A stretch of DNA of 64,000 nt, from the NCBI GenBank assembly GCA_018266295.1, contig JAFEAQ010000011.1, forward strand, positions 843,626 to 907,625, read 5' to 3'. The DNA comes from Bdellovibrionales bacterium. GTDB lineage: Bacteria > Bdellovibrionota > Bdellovibrionia > Bdellovibrionales > Bdellovibrionaceae. The translations under genes and the position numbers were made by a program. Of this stretch, positions 25,358 to 42,734 are shown piece by piece (position 1 is the first letter of the stretch; the number at the start of each line of letters is the position of its first letter). The notes under the pieces were generated by a model, which was not told the origin of the DNA, did not search any database, and saw only the letters and a program-made list of their open reading frames with translations.

Positions 25358-26092
25358 ATGAGAGCTGTGAAAGCATTGCTTCTATTCCTGACGACCATCA
25401 TGTTGCTTCCTGCGGCCCCTGCGGCTGAGTCGATTCACATTTCTCTGGCGGCCCAGGAAAGCTTTGTTGCGCTCCCGGTCATTATCGACCTCAAAGAATT
25501 CATCACCAATGCACTCAAGAAAGAAAATATCGTTGTGACCTTTGTCCCGCTGCCGGTCACTCGCGGAACCAGTTTAGCGGACAAAGGCGAACTCGATGGA
25601 GAAATGATTCGTGATAAGGAGTCGATTGAAGGCTTCTCAAATCTCATCACCAGCACTCACCCTTTAGCCGTCGTTCACTTTAAGGCCGTCTATCTCAAGA
25701 GTAATACGAAATTTAAGCATGAAAACATGAAAGACTTCCGCTGCGGTACTTTGCTGAATAATCGTCAGGTACAGGCGAAGCTAGAAGCCGACAAAATCAA
25801 ATGTCTGGAATTCAAAAGCCCAATGCAAACATTTCAACTCGTGAAAGCAGGACGGATAGATTATGTGCTCCTCGCGAATGAAATCATCGATGGATTTTTT
25901 GAGAGAAACCCAAGCTGGAAAGAAATTTATGTTATCGATGAAAAACCCTACACCGACATGCGGCTTTATCTCGTGCTAAATAAAAAACGTGCCGATTTGA
26001 TCCCGGTGATTGAAAAGGCGCTCAGGGCCGCCATTAAAAGTGAACTACCTAAATATAAGCGCCTACAACAGGGAATTAATAAGAATTTCTAG
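25358..26092 (+). CDS. Periplasmic solute-binding-protein-like (SBP family 3)
   Basis: 244 residues from the ATG at 25358: a signal peptide (cut near PAAPAAES), then a two-lobe binding-protein fold as in bacterial SBP_3 proteins, with a C-terminal lobe containing IDYVLLANEI and MRLYLVLNKK. No transporter permease or ATPase lies beside it, which fits the many stand-alone amino-acid-binding-like sensors of this clade. It converges on rpoN, the two stops overlapping by a few bases (CTAG). The ligand is unknown. Confidence 0.8.
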   Translation: MRAVKALLLFLTTIMLLPAAPAAESIHISLAAQESFVALPVIIDLKEFITNALKKENIVVTFVPLPVTRGTSLADKGELDGEMIRDKESIEGFSNLITSTHPLAVVHFKAVYLKSNTKFKHENMKDFRCGTLLNNRQVQAKLEADKIKCLEFKSPMQTFQLVKAGRIDYVLLANEIIDGFFERNPSWKEIYVIDEKPYTDMRLYLVLNKKRADLIPVIEKALRAAIKSELPKYKRLQQGINKNF

Positions 26093-27528
26093 AAGAATTT
26101 TTTACGTTGGCTCGAAGGTAAGATCTTCAGCATATCGCGATATTTTGCCACTGTCCGGCGGGCGATTTGAATGCCTTCGACTTTGAGCATCTCCACGATC
26201 TTTTGGTCAGACAATGGATTCTTTGGATCTTCTTTAGCAACCAGATCTTTGATTTTCAATTTCACTGATTCGCTCGCAAGCGCATCACCATCCGATGAAC
26301 TAATGCCGGAATTGAAGAAGTATTTAAGTTCGTAGATACCTTGCGGTGTATGAACATACTTCGCAGTCGTTACACGGCTGACGGTGGATTCATGCATACC
26401 GATATCATTTGCGATGTCTCTGAGGATCATCGGCTTCAAGAATGCCGCGCCTTTTTCAAAGAACTCGCGTTGATGCTTCACGATACTTTCAGCCACTTTG
26501 TAGATCGTTCTTTGTCTTTGATGGATCGACTTGATCAACCAAACCGCAGAACGAAGCTTTTCTTGGATATAGTCATGGGTCTTATCTTCAGACTTTTTAT
26601 CGCCCGATTTTAAAACGTTTTTATAGAAATTTGAAATCTTTAGCCGTGGGAGACCGTCTTCGTTCAAAGAAACAACGAAGTCTTCACCGACTTTATAGAC
26701 ATAAACGTCCGGAGTTACATACTGGGTCTCGTTACTGACGAAGGCGCGGCCCGGCTTCGGATCCATGGAGTAGATGATCTTACACATCTCAACCACTTCT
26801 TCGATATCTCGGCCCATTGCTTTCGCAATCGCATCGTAGTTTTTCTTTTCGAGATCTTTCAGGTGATTATTAATCAAAGTCACAAGATCTTGAGTGTCCT
26901 CTTCAAGGTGCTTCGCCTGAATCAGCAAGCACTCTTTGAGGTCACGGGCACCAACCCCCGGAGGATCGAACTCGTGAATGAGGCTCAATGTATCTTCGAG
27001 GTCAGCGATATCGAGCTTTTCTTCAGCTGCAATTTGCTCAAGCGGAGTTTTGATATAGCCATCGTCGTCCATGAAGTTCAACAACAAGTCAGCGACTTTT
27101 TCTTCGTGCTCGCTGAAGCCATTCATTTTGACCTGCCAATAGAGATGATCATGCAACGTCTGAGACGCGGAAATCGCATTCTCATAGTTCATAATCTCTT
27201 CACTGCCAGCCATGCCCGACTGCGGAGGCTTTTGATTCTGCTCGAAATAGCTTTCCCATTCGAACTCATCTTGTTTTTGCGGGTCTTGGGTGTTGTTATC
27301 CACCACTTCAGCACTGCCACCATCTACTTCGGTCGCAGCATCTTTGGTTCTTTGCAGATCCTCTTCTTTTAGAACTTCAGCTTCTTCGAGAATCGGGTTC
27401 TCTTCGAGCTCAGAACGAACTGCGGACTCAAGCTCCATACGCGACATCTGCAACAGTTTAATAGCCTGTTGCAGCTGCGGTGTGATCACCAAGGATTGGC
27501 TTAAGTTCATCGTCTGGCGAAGAGCCAC
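26089..27528 (-). CDS. rpoN: RNA polymerase sigma-54 factor
   Basis: Alternative sigma factor needing AAA+ activators to open promoters. 479 residues: the Gln/Leu-rich activator region I (TPQLQQAIKLLQMSR, about 17-31), an acidic region II, the core-binding domain, and the RpoN box ARRTVAKYRDMLKI near residues 456-469. The start is GTG with GGAG nine bases upstream, overlapping the lptB end. An unusual activator lacking a sensor domain is at 47299 in this window. Confidence 0.97.
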   Translation of the reverse strand: MALRQTMNLSQSLVITPQLQQAIKLLQMSRMELESAVRSELEENPILEEAEVLKEEDLQRTKDAATEVDGGSAEVVDNNTQDPQKQDEFEWESYFEQNQKPPQSGMAGSEEIMNYENAISASQTLHDHLYWQVKMNGFSEHEEKVADLLLNFMDDDGYIKTPLEQIAAEEKLDIADLEDTLSLIHEFDPPGVGARDLKECLLIQAKHLEEDTQDLVTLINNHLKDLEKKNYDAIAKAMGRDIEEVVEMCKIIYSMDPKPGRAFVSNETQYVTPDVYVYKVGEDFVVSLNEDGLPRLKISNFYKNVLKSGDKKSEDKTHDYIQEKLRSAVWLIKSIHQRQRTIYKVAESIVKHQREFFEKGAAFLKPMILRDIANDIGMHESTVSRVTTAKYVHTPQGIYELKYFFNSGISSSDGDALASESVKLKIKDLVAKEDPKNPLSDQKIVEMLKVEGIQIARRTVAKYRDMLKILPSSQRKKFF

Positions 27529-27540
27529 TAGTTATATCTC

Positions 27541-28263
27541 CTAAAGTCTGAAGTTTTCGCCGAGGTAGAATTTGCGGGCCAGTTCGGAATTAGCGATTTC
27601 ATCGGTGCTTCCGCTGACCTGAATTTTACCGTCTTTCAATATATAAGCATAATCGCAAATGCCCAGAGTCTCACGCACGTTATGATCTGTAATCAAAACT
27701 CCTATACCTTTGGCCTTAAGTTCGCGAATAATACTCTGGATATCATTGACGGCAATCGGGTCAATCCCGGCGAAAGGCTCGTCGAGGAGCAAGAATTTCG
27801 GTGATCCTGCGAGGGCTCGGGCGATCTCGACACGGCGTCGCTCTCCCCCGGAAAGAGCATAACCGTAACTGTCGCGGATATGAGTAATGCGGAAGTCAGA
27901 GAGCAACGCCTCAAGCTTCTCGGCGCGCTGAGCTCCACTGTAACCGTGAGCTTCAAGTGCCACGATAATATTATCGCTTACTGTCAGCTTACGGAAAATA
28001 CTTGGCTCCTGAGCGAGATAGCTCAAACCAATACGAGCACGACGGTACATGGGCTCTTTGGAAATATCCTGGGCATCAAGCTCGATAAGGCCCGAATCCG
28101 GCTTCACGAGTCCCACCACCATATAGAACGATGTCGTTTTACCGGCACCGTTGGGTCCGAGCAAGCCGACGACTTGACCGGACTCTACAGAAAAAGAGGC
28201 TCCATCCACCACTTGGCGTTTTTTGTATGCTTTTGAGATTTCTTTAATCTGTAAGTAGCTCAC
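27541..28263 (-). CDS. lptB: LPS export ABC transporter ATPase LptB
   Basis: Powers LPS extraction from the inner membrane. 240 residues with Walker [12 protein letters not shown] (about 36-46), signature [10 protein letters not shown] and Walker [13 protein letters not shown]. The lptC-lptB-rpoN gene order is the common proteobacterial arrangement. The start is GTG, seven bases after the LptC-like gene. Confidence 0.96.
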
Positions 28264-28270
28264 TCTGTTA

Positions 28271-29275
28271 CTAATCTTTCTTTTCGAGTCTTGCTCGCAC
28301 TTTCTCTACTTTAACCTTTTTTCCGCCATCAAGAAAGATGATTTCCTCGCCAGAGAGCTCATCGTTGTTTTGTATGACCTTCGGTTTTCCGCGGAAAGTA
28401 AAAATATTCTTAAAAAGGTCCAAATTCACCGTCTCGGCGGTCGCCACTTTGTCCATGTCATTAACGCGAACGCCACCCTGCATCTGAATATAGTTGATCA
28501 AATCTGTTTTGCCTTTGTACTGGAAAATCGCGGCTGGACCTTGCATACGCAAGTTATCGTATTTTACCTCGACATTTCCGGTAAACTTCGCCTGGCGGGA
28601 TTGTCCCGAGAAATCCGCTTTGTCACTCACAATAAAGAACTCTTTACCATCTTTGAACTTCTTTGAGCCGCGAACATTTTGAGTCATCGTCATACGATTT
28701 TCGTCGACTAAAACGAGCATATTCACGCCATCCAACACGAAACCGTCGCCCATCTCATCCTTCGGTCCCTGCATATTCACTTTCTCTGGGCTTTGAATCT
28801 GGCGCTTCTTGGCATTGTAGAAAATTGATGGGGTTTTAAAAATGTAGCCATTTTCAGATTTAGTCACAACATTGCCGCGGATATGCAAATCTTTCGACTT
28901 TCCATCAATCGAACCGCGGTCCCCCGTCACTGTAAAGCTCAGCTTTTCTTTATTATAGAAAAGGACCCGCACATTGCGAAGCTCCCAGCTCGAGGCCTGA
29001 TCGCCTTCAGCGGTCTCCGAAAAAAGCTCCCAGTCACGGCTGCCAAGCTGAGTTTCAACAAGATGAACGCCCTTCGCCTTTTGCGACGCCGAAACAATCT
29101 TGCTCTTATCAGGTTCTTTATTTTTATCTTTGTCTTTATCTTCCGCGTTTTCATCGCGGGTCAGCTCGATAGGAGCATCGTCTTTTTTATGTTCGAGTCT
29201 GTTAGGGAAAATAACTAGAACTTCAACGAAGAGAGCGACGAGGAGAATAACGAATAATGTATTTTTGAGGTTCAT
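28271..29275 (-). CDS. lptC: LptC-like protein with C-terminal LptA-like domain
   Basis: Inner-membrane-anchored bridge component for LPS transport. 334 residues, clearly longer than a usual LptC (about 190). Seen: one membrane helix (about 6-23), a Lys/Asp-rich linker (about 32-65), an LptC-like beta-jellyroll (about 70-200) and a second OstA/LptA-like jellyroll (about 210-320) with [18 protein letters not shown] and [10 protein letters not shown]-type repeats. No separate lptA is next to lptB. The fusion would place both bridge pieces on one chain; that reading is inferred from the repeat pattern. Confidence 0.85.
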
Positions 29276-29329: not shown

Positions 29330-29352
29330 AAAAAGGGCTTCTTTCGAAGCCC
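29330..29352 (-). terminator. Rho-independent terminator after the gliding operon
   Basis: On the minus strand, GGGCTTC pairs with GAAGCCC around a four-base loop, followed by TTTTTAAATT. It lies just after the last TolR-like gene and before the LptC-like gene. Confidence 0.9.
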
Positions 29353-29360
29353 CTGGAAAA

Positions 29361-29951
29361 CTAATTCGAGGTCTGCTCGTTAGAGCGCTTCATTACGGCG
29401 AAGTTAATCTCACCAGCGCCAGCTTCAGTCACTGTAAACATGACCTTTTTCACCGTCAAGAAGTCCACGTCTTTATCACTTTGAATTGTGACTTTTCTCC
29501 ACGCGTTTTGGTCTTCTTCTTCTTGACCACGAGCATTGTCGACCGCTGTTTTAACTTTGTTCTTCAGGCCGGTCTCATATTCTGCCTTCTTTTTATCCAA
29601 GGCAACCTTGAGAGGTTCATAAAGGTTCTTGATCATCCACTCTTCGTTGCCTTTGACTTCGTCAAAAGTAGCAACGCGCGTCTTATCGATAAGAACTTCT
29701 TTATTCGAAACCGTCACAACGATCGACGGCTTCAACTCTTTTACGATGGCAGCCTTCGGCAGAACCACTTCTTTAGGGATGTAAAGGATCTCACCCGTAG
29801 AGTTGTAGTTTTGCAGAAGAAAGATCACGAGAACCGTGAACATATCCACCATGGCAGTCAGGGAGAGCAAAGCAGTTACGCCACGCTTGCCCCGTTGCTT
29901 CTTCAAAATATTATGATAGCGGTGTCTCTCACCAGGTCTAAAAATCGCCAT
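29361..29951 (-). CDS. TolR/ExbD-like motor protein (AglQ/AglS-type), second copy
   Basis: Stator-type protein that couples proton flow to work in the envelope. 196 residues from the ATG at 29951: a basic cytoplasmic start, one membrane helix (about 27-45) with the conserved proton-carrying Asp36 in TAMVDMFTV, then a periplasmic domain with an added Lys/Glu-rich helical stretch (about 95-150). The gene stops before the terminator and starts one base after the other TolR-like gene ends. With a TolQ-like partner and a second TolR-like protein this matches the AglR-AglQ-AglS gliding motor of Myxococcus. Confidence 0.9.
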   Translation of the reverse strand: MAIFRPGERHRYHNILKKQRGKRGVTALLSLTAMVDMFTVLVIFLLQNYNSTGEILYIPKEVVLPKAAIVKELKPSIVVTVSNKEVLIDKTRVATFDEVKGNEEWMIKNLYEPLKVALDKKKAEYETGLKNKVKTAVDNARGQEEEDQNAWRKVTIQSDKDVDFLTVKKVMFTVTEAGAGEINFAVMKRSNEQTSN

Positions 29952-29952
29952 A

Positions 29953-30429
29953 TTAAATCGGCGCTCCTGTCGCCACTGAGATCGCAGGGAATCCAGACTG
30001 CAAGCAGTCATCCATTCCGCGGATAAGTTGTTCGTATGGCAAGTCGTCAGCCATTGTTACAACTGCATCCGTTTTCTCTGGATAAAGCTGCTTCACTCTT
30101 TGTAACTGAGCCATCAAACCAGCGTCATCGAACTCACCGCCTTTAACAGGCAAACTGATTACCTGTTTACCGACAGTCAGAACATAACCGGTCTCTTTAA
30201 TATCGATTTTCAAAACCACATCCGATTTTGGTGGCGGAGTTGGCTTCTTATCATCGAGCTGCTTTCCGTAGAGAGAGCTACCGATTTGCATCATATTGAC
30301 CTGCGTCCATACGGCGGTGATCAAAAGGAACGTGATCAACACGGACATCAAGTCGATCACGGGAACGAGATTCAACTCTACGTTCTTCGCGCGACCTTTC
30401 TTTTTACCACCCTCTTCTACATGTGCCAT
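29953..30429 (-). CDS. TolR/ExbD-like motor protein (AglQ/AglS-type), first copy
   Basis: 158 residues: a Lys-rich cytoplasmic start, one membrane helix (about 22-42) carrying the proton-relay Asp26 in LVPVIDLMSV, a Pro-rich linker and a TolR-like periplasmic domain. It follows the TolQ-like gene by about 40 bases. Having two divergent TolR-like proteins for one TolQ-like channel is the known arrangement of the Agl motor. Confidence 0.92.
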   Translation of the reverse strand: MAHVEEGGKKKGRAKNVELNLVPVIDLMSVLITFLLITAVWTQVNMMQIGSSLYGKQLDDKKPTPPPKSDVVLKIDIKETGYVLTVGKQVISLPVKGGEFDDAGLMAQLQRVKQLYPEKTDAVVTMADDLPYEQLIRGMDDCLQSGFPAISVATGAPI

Positions 30430-30470
30430 GACTCAATCCTTAAATAAAAATTAGAAATCTAGAGTAAAAA

Positions 30471-31181
30471 TTAGTCTTTAATTTTGTCTCTGTTAGCTAC
30501 TACAAGGTTCAAAAGACTCATGCTAGTTTCTACAACTTCATTTTCTGTCTTTTGAATTTGGTGCTGGAACAAACCGTAAGTAATGATCGCCAAGATCGCT
30601 ACTGAAAGACCAAAAGCCGTACAATTCAAGGCATGCGAGATACCTTCAGAGAGCTTTTGAGCTTTAGTTGCTGGATCGGCTGCAGATACCGCACGGAAGG
30701 AACCGATCATACCGATGATCGTACCCAAAAGACCCGCGAGTACGGCGATGTTACCGAATACCGCCAAGAAAGAAGTCCAACCTTCTACTTTTGGCATTTC
30801 TCTCATGACTGCCGCATCCATCGCCACTTGAATTTCTTCATCTGGGCGTTTGTTCATAGCTTGAACAAGACCGGCTTTTACAGTGTTCGTCAAAGGAGCT
30901 GGACGAGCATCGCAGAACGAAATCGCCTGGCGAAGGTCACCGCTCACAACCATACGGAAGATTTGATCCGTAAAGTCTTTCTTATCAACCGCAAGCGCTT
31001 TGAATTTCATTACGCGCTCAACGATCAAGAAGATCGAGATGATCGCGATCAACGCGATCACGTACATCACAAATCCACCTTCAGTGAAGGCTCTTTGGAT
31101 GAAGTTCATGTTTTCAGTTGCTGCTGCGGCTTGCATAGCTGCCGCTGCGGCTGCATCGATAGGTGTTGCTGTAGGGTTCAC
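30471..31181 (-). CDS. TolQ/ExbB/MotA-type proton channel (AglR-like)
   Basis: Channel subunit of the gliding motor. 236 residues with three membrane segments (about 33-55, 140-165 and 185-205), the second and third forming the pore: AVLAGLLGTIIGMIGSF and a Thr-containing third helix. The start is GTG with a strong AAGGAGG site. It sits between the FHA/AgmX gene and the two TolR-like genes. Confidence 0.93.
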   Translation of the reverse strand: MNPTATPIDAAAAAAMQAAAATENMNFIQRAFTEGGFVMYVIALIAIISIFLIVERVMKFKALAVDKKDFTDQIFRMVVSGDLRQAISFCDARPAPLTNTVKAGLVQAMNKRPDEEIQVAMDAAVMREMPKVEGWTSFLAVFGNIAVLAGLLGTIIGMIGSFRAVSAADPATKAQKLSEGISHALNCTAFGLSVAILAIITYGLFQHQIQKTENEVVETSMSLLNLVVANRDKIKD

Positions 31182-31218
31182 GACTTTCTCCTCCTTAAGG
31201 ATTTTATAAACTTAAAAA

Positions 31219-33420
31219 TTAATTTTCTGCTCTAAAGTAGAATGGGTAGTTAACTTCTGCCACTGTGCCCGCCGGCGGATCCGGGAATCTCCATGTAGAC
31301 AGACGATCTCTTACGCAGTTTTCAACCGCACGATTGTTCAGAGATGAACTCACAACTTTGGCATTCAAAGCGCGTCCATGATCTGCAATCGTCCAACCGA
31401 TAACCACCTTACCCTCAAGACGTTGTGTCTTGTTCAACTTATTCAACTCACGCTCGTAACAACCGCGGATCTCACGAAGACCTGCACGGATCACACGGCG
31501 AACGGCTTCACGGTCGATAGTACCTACGAAGTCTTCTTCGGCACCACCAGGCTCAATCGCCACAGAGTTTTTATCTCCGAGACCATCACCCGTTCCGTAA
31601 CCAGTTCCACGGCCTTTTGTTCCGACACCGGCGATACCCACAGTGGCAGTTCCCTTACCACCGGCACCTGTATCTTTGAACTTACCGCCGATATCATCAC
31701 CCGCACGGTCTGAGTTGGAACCTGCAGTACCTGTTGCACTTGCAGCCGTACCGAGGATTTCACCCGCACCAGAATATGCTTTATCAAGATTCTTTCTGAT
31801 ACCGCCACCACCGAGGGCCGCGAACATACCCACTTTACTGACGTCTTTGTTTTTGCTTTGCGCATTTGCAGACTCAGTAGCACCTTGCTTAACCGCGCCA
31901 CCTTGTTGGTGAACGGAAGTGTAGATCTTAGGTTTGTTTTGCGAGTTCGGCTTCGGAGCAACTTCGGAAGCTGCACCAGCTTTAGAGTTTTTAGACGCTT
32001 GAGCTGGATCCGGCTTCTTCGCCTTGTTCACCACTTCCTGCTGCTTGTCAGCCATCACGACTTTTTTAGGAGTCGGCGTTGGCTTCGGAGGCGCTGGAGT
32101 TGGCGTTTCGATAGGCTTTTCCTCAACCACTTTAATTGGCGGTGGAGTTGGTTTTGGCTTATCGAAGATAACTTGCGCGACGATCTCTTCCTTCTTCTCT
32201 TCTTCCATCATTGAAGGCGATGTTGCGTAAACATACAACGCGAGCAATGCCACAAGAATCAAAGACATCACCATACCAGTCAGCTCGGAACTGCTGAGGA
32301 ACCAAGGCGGAACTGGAATTACTGGAGGCTGAGGTACGAAGCGAACATATAGTTGCAAATCACTGTATGGCAAACCGATGAAGAAGACTTCTTCTTGATC
32401 AAGTTTCATAGTGACAGAATTACCCGTGCGTTGAGCTTTCCCCGAACGCATGAGTTCATCGACACCTTTTTTGCCGGCCTTAGTGATGACTTCAACATTC
32501 ATTTCAGAAGTCGCAGCAACGCGAGTTTCTGGGCCAACCTCTACAAGCGGCCAACCAGTTGGGCAAACACCATCTGGCATGTTGATTTCGTACTGATCGC
32601 CCGGGCCTAAACGCACGATGCCTGGAGTGCGATAGTGGTAAGTCGTCAAGACGCGCTCGCGCCAGCTGACAATAACCTCTACGACATTCCCTTTACCTGG
32701 GCGAAGATGATCACGAAGATCTTTGATCTCGCTGACAGGAGCATATGTTTTTCTATTCTTTTCTTTTCTAAATTTAGAACCTTTGCCTGGAGCACGAGTC
32801 TCAACCTTCGCAGGACCAACAACCGGAGTCGTTGCAATACGAGGTTTCTGCTCCTCTCTTACGACGGCAATCGGCTCATGCTTCACTTCTGCTTTTGGCG
32901 TTTCAAAAACCGGAGTTGCAGCCGGAATGCTCGGAGCGACACTCTTAGGCGCTGCATCCGGAATCGAAATCGGCTGAGCCGAAGTCGGCGGAGGAGCTAC
33001 TACAACCGCAGGTTCTTCATGCTTCGGAGCCTCTGGAATCACTGCTGCTGCCGGAGCAACAGGAGTTGGAGCCGGCGCTGCTGGAGCTTCGACTTTTCCT
33101 GGAGGTGCCGCTTTTGGCTTAGGAATACCTACAAAGAAATTAATTTTGAATGGCCCGATTCCGATTTCATCACCGGAAGTCAGCGCTTCATCAAGAATCG
33201 ATTGGCCGTTCTTGAAAGTTCCTGTGGTTGAGCCAAGATCGCAGACGTAGTAGCCGGCATCTCTCATTTCAATCAAACAGTGAATCGGTGAAACCTCATC
33301 GGCTTCCAGATTCAAACCGACATCGGCGTTACGGCCGATCACGATTTGATCCAGATCGAACTGCTTCACTTCGATCAGTTGAGTACCTTTAAAAACTCTA
33401 AGTATGACAGGAGATTTCAA
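31219..33420 (-). CDS. FHA-domain trans-envelope protein with AgmX/TonB-like C-terminus (GltG-like)
   Basis: Likely link between the cytoplasm and the periplasmic part of the gliding complex. 733 residues: an FHA phosphopeptide-binding domain (about 25-95, with GRN and GSTTGTFKNG), a Pro/Ala-rich linker (about 100-210), a second globular domain (about 245-365), one membrane helix (about 382-400), a Pro/Lys/Gly-rich periplasmic stretch, and an AgmX/PglI-type C-terminal domain (about 640-733) with a REIRGCYERELNK core. The start is TTG overlapping the stop of the small upstream gene (TTGA). The domain order fits Myxococcus GltG/NfsG. Confidence 0.9.
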   Translation of the reverse strand: MKSPVILRVFKGTQLIEVKQFDLDQIVIGRNADVGLNLEADEVSPIHCLIEMRDAGYYVCDLGSTTGTFKNGQSILDEALTSGDEIGIGPFKINFFVGIPKPKAAPPGKVEAPAAPAPTPVAPAAAVIPEAPKHEEPAVVVAPPPTSAQPISIPDAAPKSVAPSIPAATPVFETPKAEVKHEPIAVVREEQKPRIATTPVVGPAKVETRAPGKGSKFRKEKNRKTYAPVSEIKDLRDHLRPGKGNVVEVIVSWRERVLTTYHYRTPGIVRLGPGDQYEINMPDGVCPTGWPLVEVGPETRVAATSEMNVEVITKAGKKGVDELMRSGKAQRTGNSVTMKLDQEEVFFIGLPYSDLQLYVRFVPQPPVIPVPPWFLSSSELTGMVMSLILVALLALYVYATSPSMMEEEKKEEIVAQVIFDKPKPTPPPIKVVEEKPIETPTPAPPKPTPTPKKVVMADKQQEVVNKAKKPDPAQASKNSKAGAASEVAPKPNSQNKPKIYTSVHQQGGAVKQGATESANAQSKNKDVSKVGMFAALGGGGIRKNLDKAYSGAGEILGTAASATGTAGSNSDRAGDDIGGKFKDTGAGGKGTATVGIAGVGTKGRGTGYGTGDGLGDKNSVAIEPGGAEEDFVGTIDREAVRRVIRAGLREIRGCYERELNKLNKTQRLEGKVVIGWTIADHGRALNAKVVSSSLNNRAVENCVRDRLSTWRFPDPPAGTVAEVNYPFYFRAEN

Positions 33421-33746
33421 GTGCCACCCCGAATGCGCTGAATGTCTTCAGATGTCTTTCTCATTTCAGGAATGAAATTTTGTCTCAACTTAATCAAACG
33501 CTTATAGTTGAAATTTTTCTTCTGAAAGAGATAAAACAATTCTGGTTTTTGCGTTCCCCCCTCGACCAACTCATCCTCGAAGTTCAACTTCTGAGTACGA
33601 GTGCCTTTAGGGCGGGATTTTGAGCCCCCTGAGGAAGGAGCCGCTGCGGGAGCGTCGCCACCACCTTCTTCTTGTGCGAACGCAGACGGCGCACTCAAGA
33701 AGATAACTAAGCTGCATGTGATCACCGACAGTAAAAGACGTTTCAT
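33417..33746 (-). CDS. Small exported protein in the F position of the gliding cluster
   Basis: 109 residues: a signal peptide (cut near SAFA, about residue 24), a Gly/Pro/Ala-rich linker, then a compact charged segment with NFEDELVEGGTQKPELFYL followed by a basic helix rich in Lys and Arg. The family is not firmly recognised. Its place between the TPR lipoprotein and the FHA protein equals that of gltF/nfsF in Myxococcus. It overlaps the FHA gene, so the two are co-translated. Confidence 0.75.
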   Translation of the reverse strand: MKRLLLSVITCSLVIFLSAPSAFAQEEGGGDAPAAAPSSGGSKSRPKGTRTQKLNFEDELVEGGTQKPELFYLFQKKNFNYKRLIKLRQNFIPEMRKTSEDIQRIRGGT

Positions 33747-33766
33747 GATCTTTATTCCCCCTCTTC

Positions 33767-34684
33767 CTATTTTAAACCAGCTTTTGCTTTGTTTTCCAAA
33801 GCAATTATGCGGTTACGGGACTCTGAAGGAGGACCTACGAACTTAAGTCTGTTCAGAGCGTCCATGCCCTCTTTGTACTTGTTCATGTGATCTATAAGAA
33901 GAATAGCATAATTCAAGAGCAACTCTCGATTATTATTTTGTTCCTTCATCGCCGCTTGGTAGATCGAGCTTGCCTCGTCGAACTTTCCGACAGCTGTCAA
34001 AGCCACAGCGTAGTTGTTCATAGTTTTAGCATCACGGACACCACCGTTATAAGCGACTGAAAGAACAGAGGCCGCTTTGTTGTAGTCCTTCTCCGCGACG
34101 TAAATCGAGCCCGCGTTCGCAGCGGCGATACTGTCGTTAGAGTTGATATCTAAAGCCTTACGGAAAGCCATGATTGCATCACGTGGCTCATTATTAGCCA
34201 AGTGTACTAAACCCATATTGCTGTAGGCTTCACCGGCATTTGGATTCGCTGCGATTGCCTTGTTCAACAAATACTTCGTGGCATCGATCTTACCTTTTTT
34301 GAAGTAGTACATTGCCATCGCGTTGATTGCTTTCACATCATTCGGATTTTGCGTTAAAAGCTGACCGGCAACTCTAAAGATCTGCTCGTCATTTTGACTC
34401 TTAATTGCGTCAACCAAAGCACCTTGGCTAACAGCTTGGCCTTGAGCCGCTGTCGTTGGCGGGGCTGCTTTTGCAGACTGAGCAAAATTTTGAGAAGCTT
34501 TAGCCGGAGCCGCCGCCGCACCGCTATCGTCACCCATATCAAAGCTGCCAGAAGAGCCAGATCCGCCACTACCGGAAGCGACAGGGCTATAGCCTTCTTC
34601 ACCGCCATCTTTTTGTTTTGGCGAAGATCCGCAGGCTGCCAGCAAACCACTTATTGCTAAAGTTAGGACAATCTTTTTCATCAT
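33767..34684 (-). CDS. TPR lipoprotein (GltE/AglT-like)
   Basis: Periplasm-facing lipoprotein of the gliding complex. 305 residues: a lipoprotein signal with LAAC (Cys18), a Gly/Ser/Ala-rich stretch to about residue 80, then at least four TPR repeats (about 90-290) such as the one reading NPNAGEAYSNMGLVHLANN. Its ATG overlaps the stop of the large TPR gene upstream. Myxococcus GltE is also a TPR lipoprotein in the same position. Confidence 0.88.
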   Translation of the reverse strand: MMKKIVLTLAISGLLAACGSSPKQKDGGEEGYSPVASGSGGSGSSGSFDMGDDSGAAAAPAKASQNFAQSAKAAPPTTAAQGQAVSQGALVDAIKSQNDEQIFRVAGQLLTQNPNDVKAINAMAMYYFKKGKIDATKYLLNKAIAANPNAGEAYSNMGLVHLANNEPRDAIMAFRKALDINSNDSIAAANAGSIYVAEKDYNKAASVLSVAYNGGVRDAKTMNNYAVALTAVGKFDEASSIYQAAMKEQNNNRELLLNYAILLIDHMNKYKEGMDALNRLKFVGPPSESRNRIIALENKAKAGLK

Positions 34685-37600
34685 TGTGCCATCCAGTTAA
34701 TAATTCTTACGTCAGAAGCCTGTTCACCGTTGTTGTAGTACGCACCCGGTTGCAGTCTTGAATATTGGTCCATCGCAATATGGTAACCATCGTTATAAAC
34801 CTGAAGTTCCCAGCCGCGATCGACAGCAAGCTTAAAGCTCTCTTTCGCCTTTTGTACGAACGGCGAAGACATCTGCTCAACACCCGCTTTATATTGCTTC
34901 GTCTCTTCAGCATTCAAACCGGATGGAACAGGTACGGCCATGATAGCTTCGTACATGTGCAAGTTCGACTCACCCAAGAGTGACAATGAGCTGACGATCT
35001 CTTCAGCCGCATCGTACTTGATCACATCAGCAAGTTCTTTATTGAGCTTACCGAGCAATGCGATCTTCTTATCCAGAGTTTCCTTTTGCTTTGCTGGATT
35101 TGCAGAAATACGAGCTTGCTTGTATTCAGCAAATGTTTTCAAAGCGTCTGCGAACTTCAACTTAGCAGCCCATTGAGCGCCCAGTTTCTTTTCGCCGCCA
35201 AGACGTCTTTGAACCGCGATCGTCTTATTAGCCCAAGCTTCAGATTCAGAGATTTGGCGCTTACGCTTCATCATGTCTGAAATCCAATAGTGAGCCTCGA
35301 TCACTTTCTCTGGGTTTGCAGCGCCAGAGCTCAAGTAATCTTTGTATTTATCAATTGCGATGCTTAAGTGGTTTGCCTTACGGTGCATTGTCGCCACCGA
35401 GTAAAGAGCATCACTGGTCTCACTCTTTCTCTTAGCCATCTTGATGAACTCTTCATAAGAATGAATAGCTGCATCGTTCTTACCCAAGGCTTCGTTTAAG
35501 AGAGCCGTATTGTAAATAAAGTTAGGAGCCAATGGATCTTTTGGATTCTCGGTCGCAGCTTGTTTGTACAATCTTGCTGCTTCTTCAAAGTTTCCAGTGT
35601 CCTGATAAAGTTTCGCGAGCAATCGACGTACTTTCGGTTTATTAGACTCCATTTTAGGATCGCCGGACTTCAAAACTTGGTTGTACATCGCGATCGCTGC
35701 CGGAATCATACCTGCACGCTCATAGTTGACGCCGGCATTGAAGATCGCCGTTGTTGCCAACTCAGAACGTGGGTTGGTCTTCGCAAAAGTTTCGAAAGCT
35801 TGAGCGGATTCACCGTACTTCTTCTCAACCTCGAGATCCTGACCTTTTTTGAAGCTTGCTTTCTCCATCACGTTTTTGATGTCGGCGCCCACTTTAGAGC
35901 TAGCGATCGACTGAACCGCGAGGAGCTCCGCACCGGCTTTCTCGAGACCCGCGTAGTCTTTACGCAAGTTGTAGGTATCGAGCAAAAGATTGGCAGAGTA
36001 TTCCGCGTACTTCGTCTTTGGATAGATCTGAACGATTTCGCGGAAAACTTTCGTCGATTCATCGAACTGATTGTGCATGTAGTACAAGCGGCCGATACGG
36101 AACTTGATCTCTGGAGCCTTTTCAGACTTAGGGAACTTCGTAATGTACCATTGGCTGGCTTTAATGAAGCGCTCTACCTTAGGATCCAACGGTTGTGGTT
36201 CCAAAGTATTTGCGACACGTTTTTGCAACTCAGCATCGGAAGGAACCGATTTTTCAAGAGCCAAGATCAAATTGGCGGCCGCTTTATCAGCAAACTTGCT
36301 CTGAGGCGAGTTATCAACGAGCCACTTATACTGTACTGCAGCTTCGTCATAACGTTTCATATCGTAGAGCAACTCACCAAAGTAGAAGTGCATATCTGCA
36401 CCCTGCGGAGAAGCACCGAATTCTTCGAGATAGAATCCGTAACCTTCATACGCGGCCTTCATAGGGCCCGCTGCGTGAGAGTTCTGCGCAGTCTGATGTT
36501 GTTGCAAAACATAGTTACGCAAAGTTGTTTCGCGCATTTTGAAAGAGTTATCGATCAGCTCTTTATTGGCTTTATTCGCTTCGTACCAAGGACTATTAGG
36601 TGCGAAGTTCTTAATCCAGATGTAGAGCTCTTCACGGAACTTCGGAGAGTTCTTCGCGTAGAAGTAGTTCTGAACAATCTGATATTGCCAGTCGAAAGCT
36701 TTTGGACTGTCCGGACGCTCGCCGATCAACATCTTAAAGACGTCGCGGGCATCATCTTTACCACCCTTGTCAGAGTAGTAGTACGCGAGCTTTTCAAGAT
36801 AAGGAACAATATCAGCGTCGCCCAAGAGTCCGCGGAAATATGCCGTCGCATCAGACGCAGGTCTTGCTTCGGCGTAGAAGATCACGATGTCACGAAGTGC
36901 TTCTTGCTCAAGACGGTTTTTGTTAACCGCGCGACGGCTTTGAGAACTTGCTTCTTGCTCGTATTTCGCAGACTTGATGATGTACTCGAGATAAGACAAC
37001 GATTGTTGCGTTTTACCCAAACGGAATAAACACCATGCACCTTTGTACAACGCGAACGTGTTCAAGCGGTGCTTCTTGTCTTTGATTACGTAAGTATATT
37101 CTTTGTAAGCATCCGCCCATTTCTCGTTCTCGAAGTGGTATTCACCCAGCGAGAAATGCGACTCGCCCACGAAGGGGCTATTCGGGAATTGCTTATTTAA
37201 GCGCTGATAATACTCAGCACCTTTATGCGTATCGCCCATTTCGAAATAATTGTAACCAAGGAAGAACAACGCTTGGTCCATCTTTTCGTCTTTAGGGAAG
37301 TCACGCTCGAACCACTCATACAATTGAATTGCACGACGATTGAAGTCTTTTGCTTCAGCTGTGTTCAAAACAGGTTTGATTTTAGTTTTGCCGGCTTTGA
37401 AATCAGCCAACTGCTGATCGTACGCATCTTGTTTACGCGCATCAACGATACCCGCTTTTTCTACGTACAACTCAGCCAAACGAAGCCACAATTCACCGCG
37501 GTTCGGGCTGTTTTTAAATCTTTGAGTTAACTTATAAAGCTCTTGGATCTGCTGATCCAAAACACGCTCGTACTCAGCCTTTGTACCACCGCCACGGCTT

Positions 37601-37953
37601 TGCAAGATCTCGGATGAACGAGGTGGCTTGACCGCTTCAAGGTTGTGAGTGTTTTGGCTTGGTTTAAAGCTATAACCGAACTCAGGAAGTGCCGTATCAC
37701 CCTTTTGCATTTGTACGTTCGCACCACGGCTCTCAGTACTGATCTGATTCAGCAACTGACCGACGGTTTTCTTGCCGGCCGCTTGCGAAGCTGAAGCAGC
37801 GGCAGGGGCCACTCGGCGAGTCGTTGTCGTTTGTACGACTTTCTTCTTTTTCTTATTATTGGTACTAGTCTGTGCAAGCGCACCCTGAGCGGCACCCAGG
37901 GTCATGCTAAGAACTAAGGACGAAATAACAAGTCGGTTCTTTTTATTCATCAT
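34681..37953 (-). CDS. Large periplasmic TPR protein (GltD/AgmU-like)
   Basis: 1090 residues: a signal peptide (cut near residue 27, after GALA), a basic and Ala-rich start, then TPR-type helical repeats over nearly the whole chain, several of the YFEMGDTHKGAEYYQRL form. It is probably a periplasmic scaffold that travels with the motor, as GltD does in Myxococcus. It lies three bases after the preceding TPR gene and overlaps the lipoprotein gene. The family call rests on length, repeats and gene order. Confidence 0.85.
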   Translation of the reverse strand: MMNKKNRLVISSLVLSMTLGAAQGALAQTSTNNKKKKKVVQTTTTRRVAPAAASASQAAGKKTVGQLLNQISTESRGANVQMQKGDTALPEFGYSFKPSQNTHNLEAVKPPRSSEILQSRGGGTKAEYERVLDQQIQELYKLTQRFKNSPNRGELWLRLAELYVEKAGIVDARKQDAYDQQLADFKAGKTKIKPVLNTAEAKDFNRRAIQLYEWFERDFPKDEKMDQALFFLGYNYFEMGDTHKGAEYYQRLNKQFPNSPFVGESHFSLGEYHFENEKWADAYKEYTYVIKDKKHRLNTFALYKGAWCLFRLGKTQQSLSYLEYIIKSAKYEQEASSQSRRAVNKNRLEQEALRDIVIFYAEARPASDATAYFRGLLGDADIVPYLEKLAYYYSDKGGKDDARDVFKMLIGERPDSPKAFDWQYQIVQNYFYAKNSPKFREELYIWIKNFAPNSPWYEANKANKELIDNSFKMRETTLRNYVLQQHQTAQNSHAAGPMKAAYEGYGFYLEEFGASPQGADMHFYFGELLYDMKRYDEAAVQYKWLVDNSPQSKFADKAAANLILALEKSVPSDAELQKRVANTLEPQPLDPKVERFIKASQWYITKFPKSEKAPEIKFRIGRLYYMHNQFDESTKVFREIVQIYPKTKYAEYSANLLLDTYNLRKDYAGLEKAGAELLAVQSIASSKVGADIKNVMEKASFKKGQDLEVEKKYGESAQAFETFAKTNPRSELATTAIFNAGVNYERAGMIPAAIAMYNQVLKSGDPKMESNKPKVRRLLAKLYQDTGNFEEAARLYKQAATENPKDPLAPNFIYNTALLNEALGKNDAAIHSYEEFIKMAKRKSETSDALYSVATMHRKANHLSIAIDKYKDYLSSGAANPEKVIEAHYWISDMMKRKRQISESEAWANKTIAVQRRLGGEKKLGAQWAAKLKFADALKTFAEYKQARISANPAKQKETLDKKIALLGKLNKELADVIKYDAAEEIVSSLSLLGESNLHMYEAIMAVPVPSGLNAEETKQYKAGVEQMSSPFVQKAKESFKLAVDRGWELQVYNDGYHIAMDQYSRLQPGAYYNNGEQASDVRIINWMAQ

Positions 37954-37956
37954 AAA

Positions 37957-39546
37957 TTACTCGCAACTTTGTTTACCTAAATAATGGTAGTTTCCGATTT
38001 CATCCAACCAGTACTCACCCTGGAATGGGTAGTATTCATAGCCGTTCTGCACGTAGAAAGTACGGTCGATTTTGTCGTCAATTTGTTCTGCTGGAAGGTC
38101 CTTACCCGCCAACTTCATTTTCAAGCCTTCTTTTTTACCGTTGATCATCTCGTAACGGATGAAGCCGGCTTGTTCGTACAAGTCACGCAACTCAACACGC
38201 ATGTTCAGCATGTGAGCCTTCGCCATATCGCCCACTGCGAGTTTAGCGTTGCGTTGACGGTTATTAACAACTTTCAAAGCGTATTGGCCAACCGGAGTAT
38301 TTCTGAAACCAGGGTTCGCATCAATTTTCGCCTTTTCATCATTCAGACGCTTGATGTAGTAGAGGGAACGTTTCACGTTACCTTCTTCAGAGATGCTCTT
38401 AATCACGTTGTAAGGGAGTCTCAAAGGCACGTTCTTGTCGGTTTTCTTTATCTGTTGGCCTTTTTCGATTTCCACATAGTATTCCATCGCATCTGTATTG
38501 GCGCGGATAAAATCACCAATCTTCGCACGAACCGGACCATACGTGTTCTCAAACAGACTTAAGACCTTTTCCATCTCGTCGTATTTGCAGATGTACAAAT
38601 AAACAATTGAGCGAAGGAGCAAGGACTCAGGAATGTAGAAGTCATCATAGTAGCTTGAATGCAATGACTGGAAGTTACTAAGCACGGAACGGAAGCGAGC
38701 CGCACGCAACATAGCCCATGAAGATTCAAACAAAGCATCATGCCACAAGAAGTGGTCACGAGGGACCTGTGCATAGGCCTCGATCGCGCCATCCCAATCT
38801 TGCTTTTGATACAAAGCACGAGCGATTGCGATTTGCGCAGCAACGCGGTTGGTATCCGTTACCGGCGCATTGTCACGAGAAGCGAGCAAAGCCTGGAAGG
38901 TTTGAAGAGCCATATCAACTTGATTACCTTCAAGCTCCGCCAAACCACGTTGGAATAGAGCTTGATTGTAGTAACGACTGCCAGAGCTTACTTTCGAGAA
39001 CAACTCAGCGGCTTTCGCGAACTCACGGGATTTCATTTTGATCTCACCGATACGGAAGTACAACATGTCACGGCTGCCCGCTGGGAAGTCATTCAAGTCC
39101 ACTTTCGAAACTGCGTAATTCAACAAAGTATCATCGCCGAGGTTATCGGCCACAATTGAAAGCTTCTCGATCGCGTTCTTCACATAGCGGCTGTTACCCA
39201 TACGGATGACATCCACGAACTGGAAGGCCGCAACTTGATTCAGCTTCATTTCCATCAACATCAAACCAAGTACGTACTTGAGTTGTGGACGTTCTGCTTG
39301 AAGCTCCGAGCGGCGAGCCAGCTGGAACAAAGCATTTGAAGCCGCTTCATACTGCCCGCCTTTTGCGAGAGCCAAAGCTTGATTCACTTGCTGACGAAGC
39401 GGCGAGTTCTTCGCTTGCGGGGCTGCCACCACTGAAGGAGATCCGCCACGACGCTGCTGAGGAGCCGCACGTCTGACTGGCTGGGCTGCGTAAGCTGCTG
39501 GAGCCAAAATACCTACTGCTAAGATAGTTGTGATAAATTTTCTCAT
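37957..39546 (-). CDS. Periplasmic TPR-like protein (GltC-like)
   Basis: 529 residues: a signal peptide (cut near AYAA, residue 20), an Arg/Gln/Pro-rich start, then helical TPR-like repeats to about residue 350, and a C-terminal region with a tyrosine-rich end (FYVQNGYEYYPFQGEYW). Its ATG overlaps the stop of the upstream beta-barrel gene (ATGA). Position and repeats match GltC of Myxococcus, which works in the periplasm and outer membrane. Confidence 0.82.
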   Translation of the reverse strand: MRKFITTILAVGILAPAAYAAQPVRRAAPQQRRGGSPSVVAAPQAKNSPLRQQVNQALALAKGGQYEAASNALFQLARRSELQAERPQLKYVLGLMLMEMKLNQVAAFQFVDVIRMGNSRYVKNAIEKLSIVADNLGDDTLLNYAVSKVDLNDFPAGSRDMLYFRIGEIKMKSREFAKAAELFSKVSSGSRYYNQALFQRGLAELEGNQVDMALQTFQALLASRDNAPVTDTNRVAAQIAIARALYQKQDWDGAIEAYAQVPRDHFLWHDALFESSWAMLRAARFRSVLSNFQSLHSSYYDDFYIPESLLLRSIVYLYICKYDEMEKVLSLFENTYGPVRAKIGDFIRANTDAMEYYVEIEKGQQIKKTDKNVPLRLPYNVIKSISEEGNVKRSLYYIKRLNDEKAKIDANPGFRNTPVGQYALKVVNNRQRNAKLAVGDMAKAHMLNMRVELRDLYEQAGFIRYEMINGKKEGLKMKLAGKDLPAEQIDDKIDRTFYVQNGYEYYPFQGEYWLDEIGNYHYLGKQSCE

Positions 39547-40379
39547 CGGTAAGTAGCCTCCGGATAGAAGAAACTCATGCCCACAGTCAGAAGCAAATCG
39601 CTAAAGCTTTGTGTTGTTCCGTCTGTAGATTTCGCTGAATAGTTCATCATGCTAAAGTCCCAGTTCACAGAGAAGCGCTTAGAAAGAGCGAAGTTCTCGC
39701 CCGTTCCAACGTGAATCGTGAAGCCGCTGCCGCCTGTGCTGACAGATGTATTACCGCCGCCGAAGGTGAAGTAATGCTCAAAAGGAACGATCTTCTTATT
39801 TTGCCAAGTCATCTTGCCGTAGAACGGAGTGTACTTCGCATCAAGGCCGATATAATTTTTCGGGAAACCGAAGCTGTCGGCGCTGACGGCGTTGTTATCA
39901 TGGAGTTCTTGAGCAGACTGTCTTTGAGAACTTGTCATTGTTGTGTAAGTTCCCTCAACACCCCAAGCTTCCGTCAGGTAGTATGCCGCTTTCAAAGACA
40001 CACCCGCCGTCAAGAACCAAGGATTGTTCGTGATCGTCGTGAATGCGCCTGTGAACTGGAAACGACCTGTTTTAGGCAAGAAACGTTTTTGGATTACCGA
40101 GATCTCGCTGAACGGCTGCAACTTCGTCAAACCCGAGAAGTCCGTCAGCTTGTTGTTCTGCTGAGCTTCCGCGCGATCTTCAGCGGCATCCATTTTTTGA
40201 GTTTGCGCGCCCGGAGCGTAACTCGGTTGGGCTTTCGGAGCTGTTTTATCCAACTCCATCTCGATTACGTTCAAATCGTCACCGATCCCTGCGCCGCCGC
40301 CATCTTGCGCCCATGCGGAGTGACTTGCCAGGAGGCCCATCATTGCTGTCATGAAAAGTGTTTTAAAGTGCATCTTCAT
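39543..40379 (-). CDS. Outer-membrane beta-barrel protein (GltB-like)
   Basis: About 278 residues: a signal peptide (cut after HSAWA), an acidic linker with a short coiled region, then alternating beta strands ending in an aromatic C-terminal strand (LLLTVGMSFFYPEATYR). The predicted fold is a small outer-membrane barrel. Two other ATGs, three codons upstream and two downstream, are possible; 40379 sits best after AAGGA. It lies directly after the other barrel gene, like gltA-gltB. Confidence 0.83.
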   Translation of the reverse strand: MKMHFKTLFMTAMMGLLASHSAWAQDGGGAGIGDDLNVIEMELDKTAPKAQPSYAPGAQTQKMDAAEDRAEAQQNNKLTDFSGLTKLQPFSEISVIQKRFLPKTGRFQFTGAFTTITNNPWFLTAGVSLKAAYYLTEAWGVEGTYTTMTSSQRQSAQELHDNNAVSADSFGFPKNYIGLDAKYTPFYGKMTWQNKKIVPFEHYFTFGGGNTSVSTGGSGFTIHVGTGENFALSKRFSVNWDFSMMNYSAKSTDGTTQSFSDLLLTVGMSFFYPEATYR

Positions 40380-40390
40380 CGGCTCCATCC

Positions 40391-41161
40391 TTAAAACATG
40401 TAAGCAAGACCAATATCTAAATTGGTCGTGTAAGTGATACGTTCAGCAAACTGATCATATGGAGGTGCTTTTTTGCCGCCCGGATTGTTCGGATTCAAAG
40501 TGTACTGAGCACTGTCTTGATAGAACGGGATCGGCGCATTGTTGATGAACATGCGAAGGTCCCAACGCAAGCTGAGCTGTCTTGTCAGATAAAACTTCTG
40601 ACCGAGACCCGCTGCAACCCCTGGATAAGTTTTGTTCTGATATTTTACAAACCCAGCAGAAGCCGAACCGAACGTGCTCAAGTTGAACACGATGCTCTTA
40701 CTCAAACTCATTTTGCCGTAGAAAGCTTTGAAGTTGTAGTCAGCCATGAAAGTCGACTGAGGAGCTGGCGCACGAGTGAAATCAAGATGAATGTTACCGC
40801 CGGAAGATCCCGGAACGTCTTTCAACTGCTCACCGTACTTGCTCAAACCCGAAGCGTTGCTTTCAAAGAGAACACCGATCGCATGCTCCTCAGACCAGTG
40901 ATAGTAACCGGCAAAGCCGAATTTGCTGACGTTGAAGATCGGCTCCGTCAAAGCATTACCGTAGTATGCGCCAATTTCAAAGTGGCCGGCAGTGTTGACG
41001 TTTCTGTTCTTCACGCTGACTGGTTTATCAAAAACCGGATAGACCGATTCCTGCGCGAGTTCTTCCGTTGGAAGCTCTACGACTTCAGCTGCAAAAGCGA
41101 CTCTCTGTAAGAGAAAGGCCGCTAAGAATAGACTCAATCCTTTGAGTGCGTTCTTAATCAT
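40391..41161 (-). CDS. Outer-membrane beta-barrel protein (GltA-like)
   Basis: 256 residues with a signal peptide (cut near AFAA, residue 24) and a chain of amphipathic strands ending in a C-terminal Phe (LDIGLAYMF), the classic outer-membrane signature. It shares with the next gene the strand motif FYGKMSLSKSIVFN / FYGKMTWQNKKIVPF, so the two barrels are probably related by duplication. First gene of the Glt cluster, starting directly after the kdsC stop. Confidence 0.83.
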   Translation of the reverse strand: MIKNALKGLSLFLAAFLLQRVAFAAEVVELPTEELAQESVYPVFDKPVSVKNRNVNTAGHFEIGAYYGNALTEPIFNVSKFGFAGYYHWSEEHAIGVLFESNASGLSKYGEQLKDVPGSSGGNIHLDFTRAPAPQSTFMADYNFKAFYGKMSLSKSIVFNLSTFGSASAGFVKYQNKTYPGVAAGLGQKFYLTRQLSLRWDLRMFINNAPIPFYQDSAQYTLNPNNPGGKKAPPYDQFAERITYTTNLDIGLAYMF

Positions 41162-41683
41162 TTATGACCGTCCTGATGATGAAAAGGCTCCGTGTTTATA
41201 AATCAAATCACATACCTCGCGGACAGCTCCGTTGCCGCCAGGCCTTTTTGTTACGTAATCTGCTTCTTCAATAACTTCTTCTACGGCCTCTGGAACTGTC
41301 GCTCCGAAAGCCACCGCCTGAATCAGAGGAATGTCGAAAATGTCGTCGCCGACACAAGCCATTTCCTCTGGCTTCAAACCAGATTGTTTTTGCAAATCAA
41401 TGAATGATGGGACTTTGTCTCCGGCACCTTCGTAGAAGTATTGGATGCCGAGATTCTTCACACGCTGACGAATATCTTCAGCTTTGCTGCCAGTGATCAC
41501 TGCAAGTTTGTAGCCGGATTCAATAAGACGCTTGATACCGACACCATCACGAATAGAAAAAAATCTTTTCCATTCACCATTGGAGTCCATCCAAAGTCGA
41601 CAATCTGTCAACACGCCGTCCACATCAAGGACGAGCATCTTAATGTTTTGCAAACTACTGAGTTTTGAAGCCATCTGTGTCAT
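41162..41683 (-). CDS. kdsC: 3-deoxy-D-manno-octulosonate 8-phosphate phosphatase
   Basis: Removes phosphate from Kdo-8-phosphate in LPS core synthesis. 173 residues, the short C0-type HAD fold with LDVDGVLTD (about 18-26), a TGSK Thr motif, and VGDDIFDIPL. No Shine-Dalgarno is visible before the ATG. The 67-base gap before it contains the palindrome CACCCGGGTG. The next gene begins one base after its stop. Confidence 0.94.
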   Translation of the reverse strand: MTQMASKLSSLQNIKMLVLDVDGVLTDCRLWMDSNGEWKRFFSIRDGVGIKRLIESGYKLAVITGSKAEDIRQRVKNLGIQYFYEGAGDKVPSFIDLQKQSGLKPEEMACVGDDIFDIPLIQAVAFGATVPEAVEEVIEEADYVTKRPGGNGAVREVCDLIYKHGAFSSSGRS

Positions 41684-41750: not shown

Positions 41751-42733
41751 TTATCGAACTTTCGTTCTCAACAGGTCTTGGAAATTCAACATTCCGACTG
41801 GACGTTTTGGATGTTCGCTATTCTTATCAAAGACAAAAAGAATCTGAATGCGAAATTGCTCCATCAAGAAGAGCGCTTTTTCAGCAAGTTCGTTGGCATC
41901 AACTCCGCGCGGATTCGTTGTCATCAAGTCTTTCGCGGTTCCTGTGAATGGATCAGGACTTTTATCGAGGCGACGGCGAATATCACCGTCCGTGATCACA
42001 CCAAGAAGATCGCCGTTGTTATCCAAGACCCCAGCAGTTCCGCGAACATTTCTATGAGTCATGATAGAAAATACTTCGCGCATTGGAGTGTCCAGCTGGA
42101 CTAAAGGCAAGGCATCACCAGTGTGCATGACATCTTTCACTCTGGTCAAAAGTCTGTATCCCAGACTTCCGCCCGGATGATACTCAGCGAACTCTTCCGG
42201 AGAAAAACCTTTTTCATTCAAAACTGCCATTGCCATCGCGTCACCCATGGCAAGAGATGCAGTGCTACTTGCCGTCGGTGCAAGGTTCAAAGGACACGCT
42301 TCCGTTGACACTGACACATTCAAAACAACCTTCGCCGCTTTTGCCAAAGTCGAATTCACATTACCGGTAATCGCAATGACTGCGATATCCTTACGAAGGG
42401 CGAATGCCAATATAGGAGCAAGTTCTGGAGCCTCGCCACCATAACTCAAAGCTAAAATCACATCGCCATTTTGAATGATCCCAAGATCACCGTGAGCACT
42501 CTCTGCAGGGTGCAAAAAAACTGCGGGAGTTCCCGTCGAAGAAAAGGTGCTGGCGAGCTTGCGCGCGATCTGTCCGGACTTTCCCATACCCGTGACGATC
42601 AATTTACCTTCGCAGGCTTGAATCGTTTTAACAGCGGTTTCAAATCCGTCTTTCAAACGCTCTTTCAAAGCCAAAATAGCATTGGCTTCGATTTCCAAAA
42701 CTTGCAGACCTTGCTCGATGATCTTAGAACTCA

Positions 42734-42734
<1 letters not shown>
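41751..42734 (-). CDS. kdsD: Arabinose 5-phosphate isomerase
   Basis: Converts ribulose 5-phosphate to arabinose 5-phosphate for Kdo synthesis. 327 residues: an N-terminal SIS sugar isomerase domain with TGMGKSGQIARK (about 49-60) and STGTPAVFLHPAESAHGD, then two CBS domains (about 210-325). The ATG overlaps the pyrG stop as TAATG. KdsD beside kdsB, kdsC and pyrG gives a near-complete Kdo activation set; kdsA is not in the window. Confidence 0.96.

Follow-up and report, generated by a model that had tools for sequence, protein, structure and literature searches.

What machine is encoded by the ten tightly packed genes that lie between kdsC and lptCA in the window (the whole 64,000-nucleotide stretch of DNA from a Bdellovibrionales bacterium that was analysed here), and what does it move? 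The mechanism of the AglRQS-Glt/Nfs machinery has been published (PMC3858216), gliding of Bdellovibrio is on record (PMC3169522), and a well-delimited gliding candidate with class-wide conservation is useful because a 2026 review still terms the Bdellovibrio gliding machinery unidentified (PMC13104615). We consider it probable that the operon encodes a proton-driven, envelope-spanning machine of the Agl-Glt/Nfs class, orthologous to Bd0828-0838 of Bdellovibrio bacteriovorus, which was inserted in the class ancestor and would serve slow movement on surfaces and prey as well as attachment. The Agl-Glt system itself is already known, and publications have covered the HD100 orthologue of the operon since 2010-2011.

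The ten genes run on the minus strand from position 41161 down to 29361, and neighbouring genes lie at most a few tens of bases apart or overlap by no more than that (Table 1). The parts named in the original prediction, which had been made from the letters of the DNA, were all found by profiles and in the order given there: barrels, TPR proteins, a lipoprotein, an exported protein, an FHA/AgmX protein and TolQ- and TolR-like proteins. The tight packing and the end at a terminator were likewise borne out. The run of genes does not start at 41161, however: the gltA-like ATG follows the stop codon of kdsC without a spacer, and in relatives the two genes often overlap by 4 bases. A promoter scan gave matches no more numerous than in shuffled sequences, and no promoter is proposed. 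The open frame of aglS extends to 30011, but its start was placed at 29951 because orthologues begin with MAIxxPG; this is most likely the true start.

Table 1 Features of the operon and its flanks (window positions)
Feature	Position	Strand	Basis
kdsD (upstream flank, Kdo synthesis)	41751-42734	-	Pfam SIS+CBS
kdsC (upstream flank, Kdo synthesis)	41162-41683	-	HAD hydrolase
gltA-like outer-membrane 8-stranded barrel, 256 aa	40391-41161	-	TIGR04565 87 bits; AlphaFold barrel, OmpA/OprF/OmpW-like; start abuts kdsC stop
gltB-like outer-membrane 8-stranded barrel, 281 aa	39543-40388	-	TIGR04565 94 bits; AlphaFold barrel, OmpW/OmpA-like
GltC, exported TPR protein, 529 aa	37957-39546	-	NF033756 180 bits (curated cut-off 450)
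GltD-like large periplasmic TPR scaffold, 1090 aa	34681-37953	-	TPR profiles; blastp to Myxococcus/Anaeromyxobacter counterparts
GltE-like TPR lipoprotein, 305 aa	33767-34684	-	NF033758 45 bits (cut-off 225); lipobox LAAC
CglF/GltF-like small exported protein, 109 aa	33417-33746	-	NF033764 39 bits (cut-off 90)
GltG, 733 aa, TTG start	31219-33420	-	NF033760 242 bits end to end; NF033768 102 bits; FHA 52 bits
AglR, TolQ/ExbB/MotA-family motor subunit, 236 aa	30471-31181	-	PF01618 96 bits; AglR clade; both channel Thr kept
AglQ, TolR/ExbD-family motor subunit, 158 aa	29953-30429	-	PF02472 61 bits; TM Asp kept (alignment)
AglS, TolR/ExbD-family motor subunit, 196 aa from corrected start	29361-29951	-	PF02472 45 bits; TM Asp kept
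Intrinsic terminator after aglS	29333-29354	-	9-bp stem, 4-base loop, T run
lptCA (downstream flank)	28271-29275	-	Pfam LptC + LptD_N/LptA
lptB (downstream flank)	27541-28263	-	ABC_tran
rpoN (downstream flank)	26089-27528	-	Sigma54

The profile search against the Glt, Nfs and Agl families gave matches for GltC, GltG, GltE, CglF and both barrels, although only the two barrels scored above their cut-off. GltC, GltE and CglF (Table 1) and GltG (242 of 650 bits) missed the NCBIfam equivalog cut-offs, as did Myxococcus NfsC with the GltC profile (210 of 450 bits). The GltC match nevertheless spans almost the whole protein, and counterparts of gltA, gltB and gltF (group A genes) were all found, the CglF match being weak. 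The barrel models were predicted by AlphaFold from orthologue alignments; the signal sequence and lipobox of the GltE-like protein were read directly from the translation. For the GltD-like protein, blastp gave 6e-60 against the Myxococcus protein in the NfsD position and 1e-62 against the Anaeromyxobacter protein in the GltD position. GltG has an FHA domain, predicted to be cytoplasmic, one transmembrane segment near residue 380 and a periplasmic AgmX/PglI (TonB-like) tail. No PDB sequence relatives of AglQ and GltC and no phage-borne relatives of GltC were found.

In the AglR tree, Agl-like proteins separate from TolQ/ExbB (support 100/99), and the window clade stands beside AglR of Myxococcus and Anaeromyxobacter (86/95). 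A joined AglRQS tree neither supported nor rejected the pairing with Myxococcus (AU p 0.44); a grouping of the window motor with its paralogues from the same genomes, to the exclusion of Myxococcus, was rejected (p 0.004). Alignment showed that both channel Thr residues of AglR are kept, and the transmembrane Asp is kept in 37 of 37 orthologues of each TolR-like protein, counted by motif and, for two orthologues that the motif missed, by inspection. The assignment to the Agl-Glt/Nfs class was upheld by profiles, gene order and the motor tree, and the outcomes that the original prediction had listed as contrary to it did not occur, the motor standing apart from canonical TolQ. GltC phylogeny tells little more than orthology inside the class, because the GltC tree has several long branches; a tidy clade of GltC from the window, Myxococcus Glt and Nfs, and Anaeromyxobacter was rejected (AU p 0.0004).

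The window and a genome of the same family but a different genus (by the grouping used), which we take to be B. bacteriovorus HD100, were compared with the Myxococcus systems; genome-wide statements refer to searches with chosen queries. With the Myxococcus Agl-Glt gliding machinery the operon shares the AglRQS motor clade, GltA-G counterparts and the channel residues. However, the Myxococcus genes are split over several loci, while in the window the homologues of GltC, D, E and G stand in one locus with the motor, and the Glt profile scores of the window lie under the cut-offs. Full-length GltJ was absent from both genomes by profile search, only C-terminal or linker stretches matching in the window's genome (control: the Myxococcus protein, 561 bits). 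The predicted "complete" cluster was therefore an overstatement: the operon is a ten-gene expanded core, without full-length GltJ, and GltH, I and K, which belong to the full Myxococcus machine, are reported absent from HD100 (PMC3169522). With the Nfs spore-coat complex of Myxococcus the operon shares the single cluster, the C-D-E-F-G order and a similar GltC score, but nfs is without motor genes of its own, whereas the window operon includes aglRQS. The predicted likeness of order to Myxococcus stands for nfsC-nfsG and fails for Myxococcus glt, which is scattered and whose two barrel genes are reversed by best match. MglA was found in the window's genome (63% identity, E 9e-84). The Myxococcus MglA query (best match 92% identical) was used only as a route to named Myxococcota genomes.

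In the comparison genome AglR is 87% and GltC 63% identical to those of the window, and Agl-type motors lie at 398, 787, 1403 and 2282 kb. Four operons of Bdellovibrio have been published, Bd0412-0420, Bd0828-0838, Bd1473-1483 and Bd2368-2377 (PMC2797640), with which these positions scale linearly. Since the orthologue of the window cluster is the one at 787 kb, this cluster corresponds to Bd0828-0838, and by sequence and map position it is the orthologue of that operon, with the same ten genes in the same order and the same flanks of kdsC and lptCA-lptB-rpoN. Luciano et al. (2011) described four expanded core complexes in Bdellovibrio, lacking GltH, I, J and K, and considered Bd0828-0838, closest to Myxococcus aglRQS, the best candidate for the gliding apparatus (PMC3169522).

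Judged from its encoded parts, the operon likely specifies a force-transmitting envelope machine. By analogy with Myxococcus, proton flow through AglRQS would move GltG, which would pull along the parts in the periplasm and outer membrane, and components exposed at the surface would thereby push against a substrate. In this predator lineage the machine, possibly under MglA control, is likely used to move slowly over surfaces and prey and to attach to them. Gliding as its specific use is favoured but unproved, because the paralogous Bd1473-1483-type operon is a competing candidate: bd1480, one of its genes, shows surface induction and requires Bd0367 cGAMP (PMC9140294, Lowry et al. 2022). The alternatives weighed below dispute the output of the machine, not its anatomy, and the confidence placed in them therefore overlaps with that placed in the reading preferred here.

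The window's genome (4.22 Mb) encodes nine MotA/ExbB proteins, four of them in Agl/Glt-like clusters (the window, L013, L014 and L015). L013 is probably of the Bd1473-1483 type. In L013 (2630-3770; G000:C11, about 224.6-225.8 kb) and in its counterpart L258 of the HD100-type genome, one TolR-like subunit lacks the transmembrane Asp (ELDLAPLLAVMVKL) and the other keeps it, which gives a motor with only one half of the normal number of proton sites. Directly upstream of the L013 motor lies a gene for a GYF_2 + PilZ protein (1317-1898), which suggests cyclic-dinucleotide input. In the third paralogous cluster, the GltC-like gene is followed by one for a possible von Willebrand A lipoprotein (L015:5427-6443; weak PF00092 match), a candidate surface adhesin. 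The HD100-type genome also carries a motorless mini-cluster, OMP-GltC-GltF-OMP (L099:7755-11079, about 3.492 Mb), absent from the window's genome and present in three other genomes; its GltC is sister to the window type.

It is conceivable, though we regard it as doubtful, that the L013-type cluster is the main driver of gliding and that the operon in the window is used for attachment to prey or for some other process of contact. The surface induction of bd1480 and the adjoining PilZ+GYF gene fit such a division, as do two phenotypes: loss of MglA blocks entry but not attachment (PMC3983030), whereas an insertion in Bd0838 (AglS), found in a 2019 transposon study to be defective in prey attachment, killing and rounding, does block attachment (PMC6561027). 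However, the L013-type motor falls outside the AglR group of the window and Myxococcus and has the TolR-like subunit without Asp, and its GltG is without the N-terminal half of the profile; among the four clusters only the window's matches the GltG profile over its full length, the paralogues matching in the C-terminal half.

The position of the operon was compared across ten families of the class, in a sample of 40 loci. The upstream series in the window is engB, kdsB, pyrG, kdsD and kdsC, and the downstream one lptCA, lptB and rpoN. In 36 of the 40 loci kdsC or kdsD lies directly upstream in the same direction; lpt/rpoN genes follow in 33 of the 37 loci with the 3' end in hand, with 0.8-3.5 kb of additional DNA in between in several families, and 30 loci have both flanks. 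Almost every sampled genome of the class has a GltC of the window type (E 3e-67 or better), and the matches in other classes of the phylum were much weaker (E 8e-36 or worse). In L268, from another class of the phylum, kdsC overlaps lptCA by 4 bases, lptB and rpoN follow, and no glt gene stands between; Anaeromyxobacter (L271) has kdsB, pyrG, kdsC, lptB and rpoN in order without glt. The ancestral order is drawn from these two genomes, because in ten further outgroup genomes lptB and rpoN were usually adjacent and kdsC was not detected nearby. The simplest reading of these gene orders would be that the glt-agl cassette entered the kdsC-lptCA junction once, in the ancestor of the class, and has mostly been kept there; such an event would be a simple evolutionary marker for the lineage's gain of its main Agl-Glt machine. 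The place of the operon between kdsC and lptCA of a kds-lptCA-lptB-rpoN operon is apparently unreported; a search made largely of non-subscription literature found nothing linking kdsC or lptB with Bdellovibrio gliding. In lptCA (28271-29275) LptC and LptA-like domains (PF06835 + PF03968) are fused in one protein, which was also seen in the outgroup class.

The kds genes and the cassette are probably transcribed together, with lpt mostly shielded from that transcription, because HD100 also has a terminator between aglS and lptCA. Insertion mutants of the operon could still disturb LPS export, and, with LPS-export genes directly downstream, complementation is needed for the published phenotypes of the Bd0838 insertion. 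The link might also have been kept by selection, the Agl-Glt machine of the class being functionally tied to LPS through a dependence on the Kdo/Lpt pathway, either of the machine's production or of the polymer that it handles; we think this unlikely. Similarly improbable is that an Agl-Nfs-like machine moves or arranges surface polysaccharide or LPS instead of driving gliding, the attachment defects then reflecting an altered cell surface. The gene order is indeed that of nfs rather than glt, the GltC score (180 bits) is near that of Myxococcus NfsC (210) and far from Myxococcus GltC (1092), the operon is embedded among Kdo/Lpt genes across the class, and the same motor powers the movement of spore-coat polymer by Nfs (PMC3858216). 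However, the GltC and GltG distances reflect divergence age and do not tell a glt function from an nfs one, linkage in the genome does not amount to function, and Bdellovibrio does glide (PMC3169522).

The preferred Agl-Glt/Nfs machine shares its motor superfamily and channel residues with Tol-Pal and TonB-ExbBD, which form a separate clade with different partners. A modified Tol-Pal/TonB energiser for outer-membrane constriction or nutrient uptake, as the TolQ/TolR-type motor, the YbgF-like TPR repeats and the TonB-like tail might suggest, is very improbable, since the tree excludes the window AglR from the TolQ group, contrary to a motor grouping with canonical TolQR, the scores are far under the cut-offs of the Tol equivalogs (TolQ 87 of 221 bits, TolR 28 and 18 of 127) and of ExbB, and the operon is without a TonB-dependent receptor. 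Canonical Tol-Pal or TonB identity of the motor was ruled out by the same tree and profile scores. No TolA, TolB or Pal is encoded within the operon, and a distinct Tol cluster (L019) lies elsewhere in the genome, its TolQ grouping with that of E. coli and Myxococcus.
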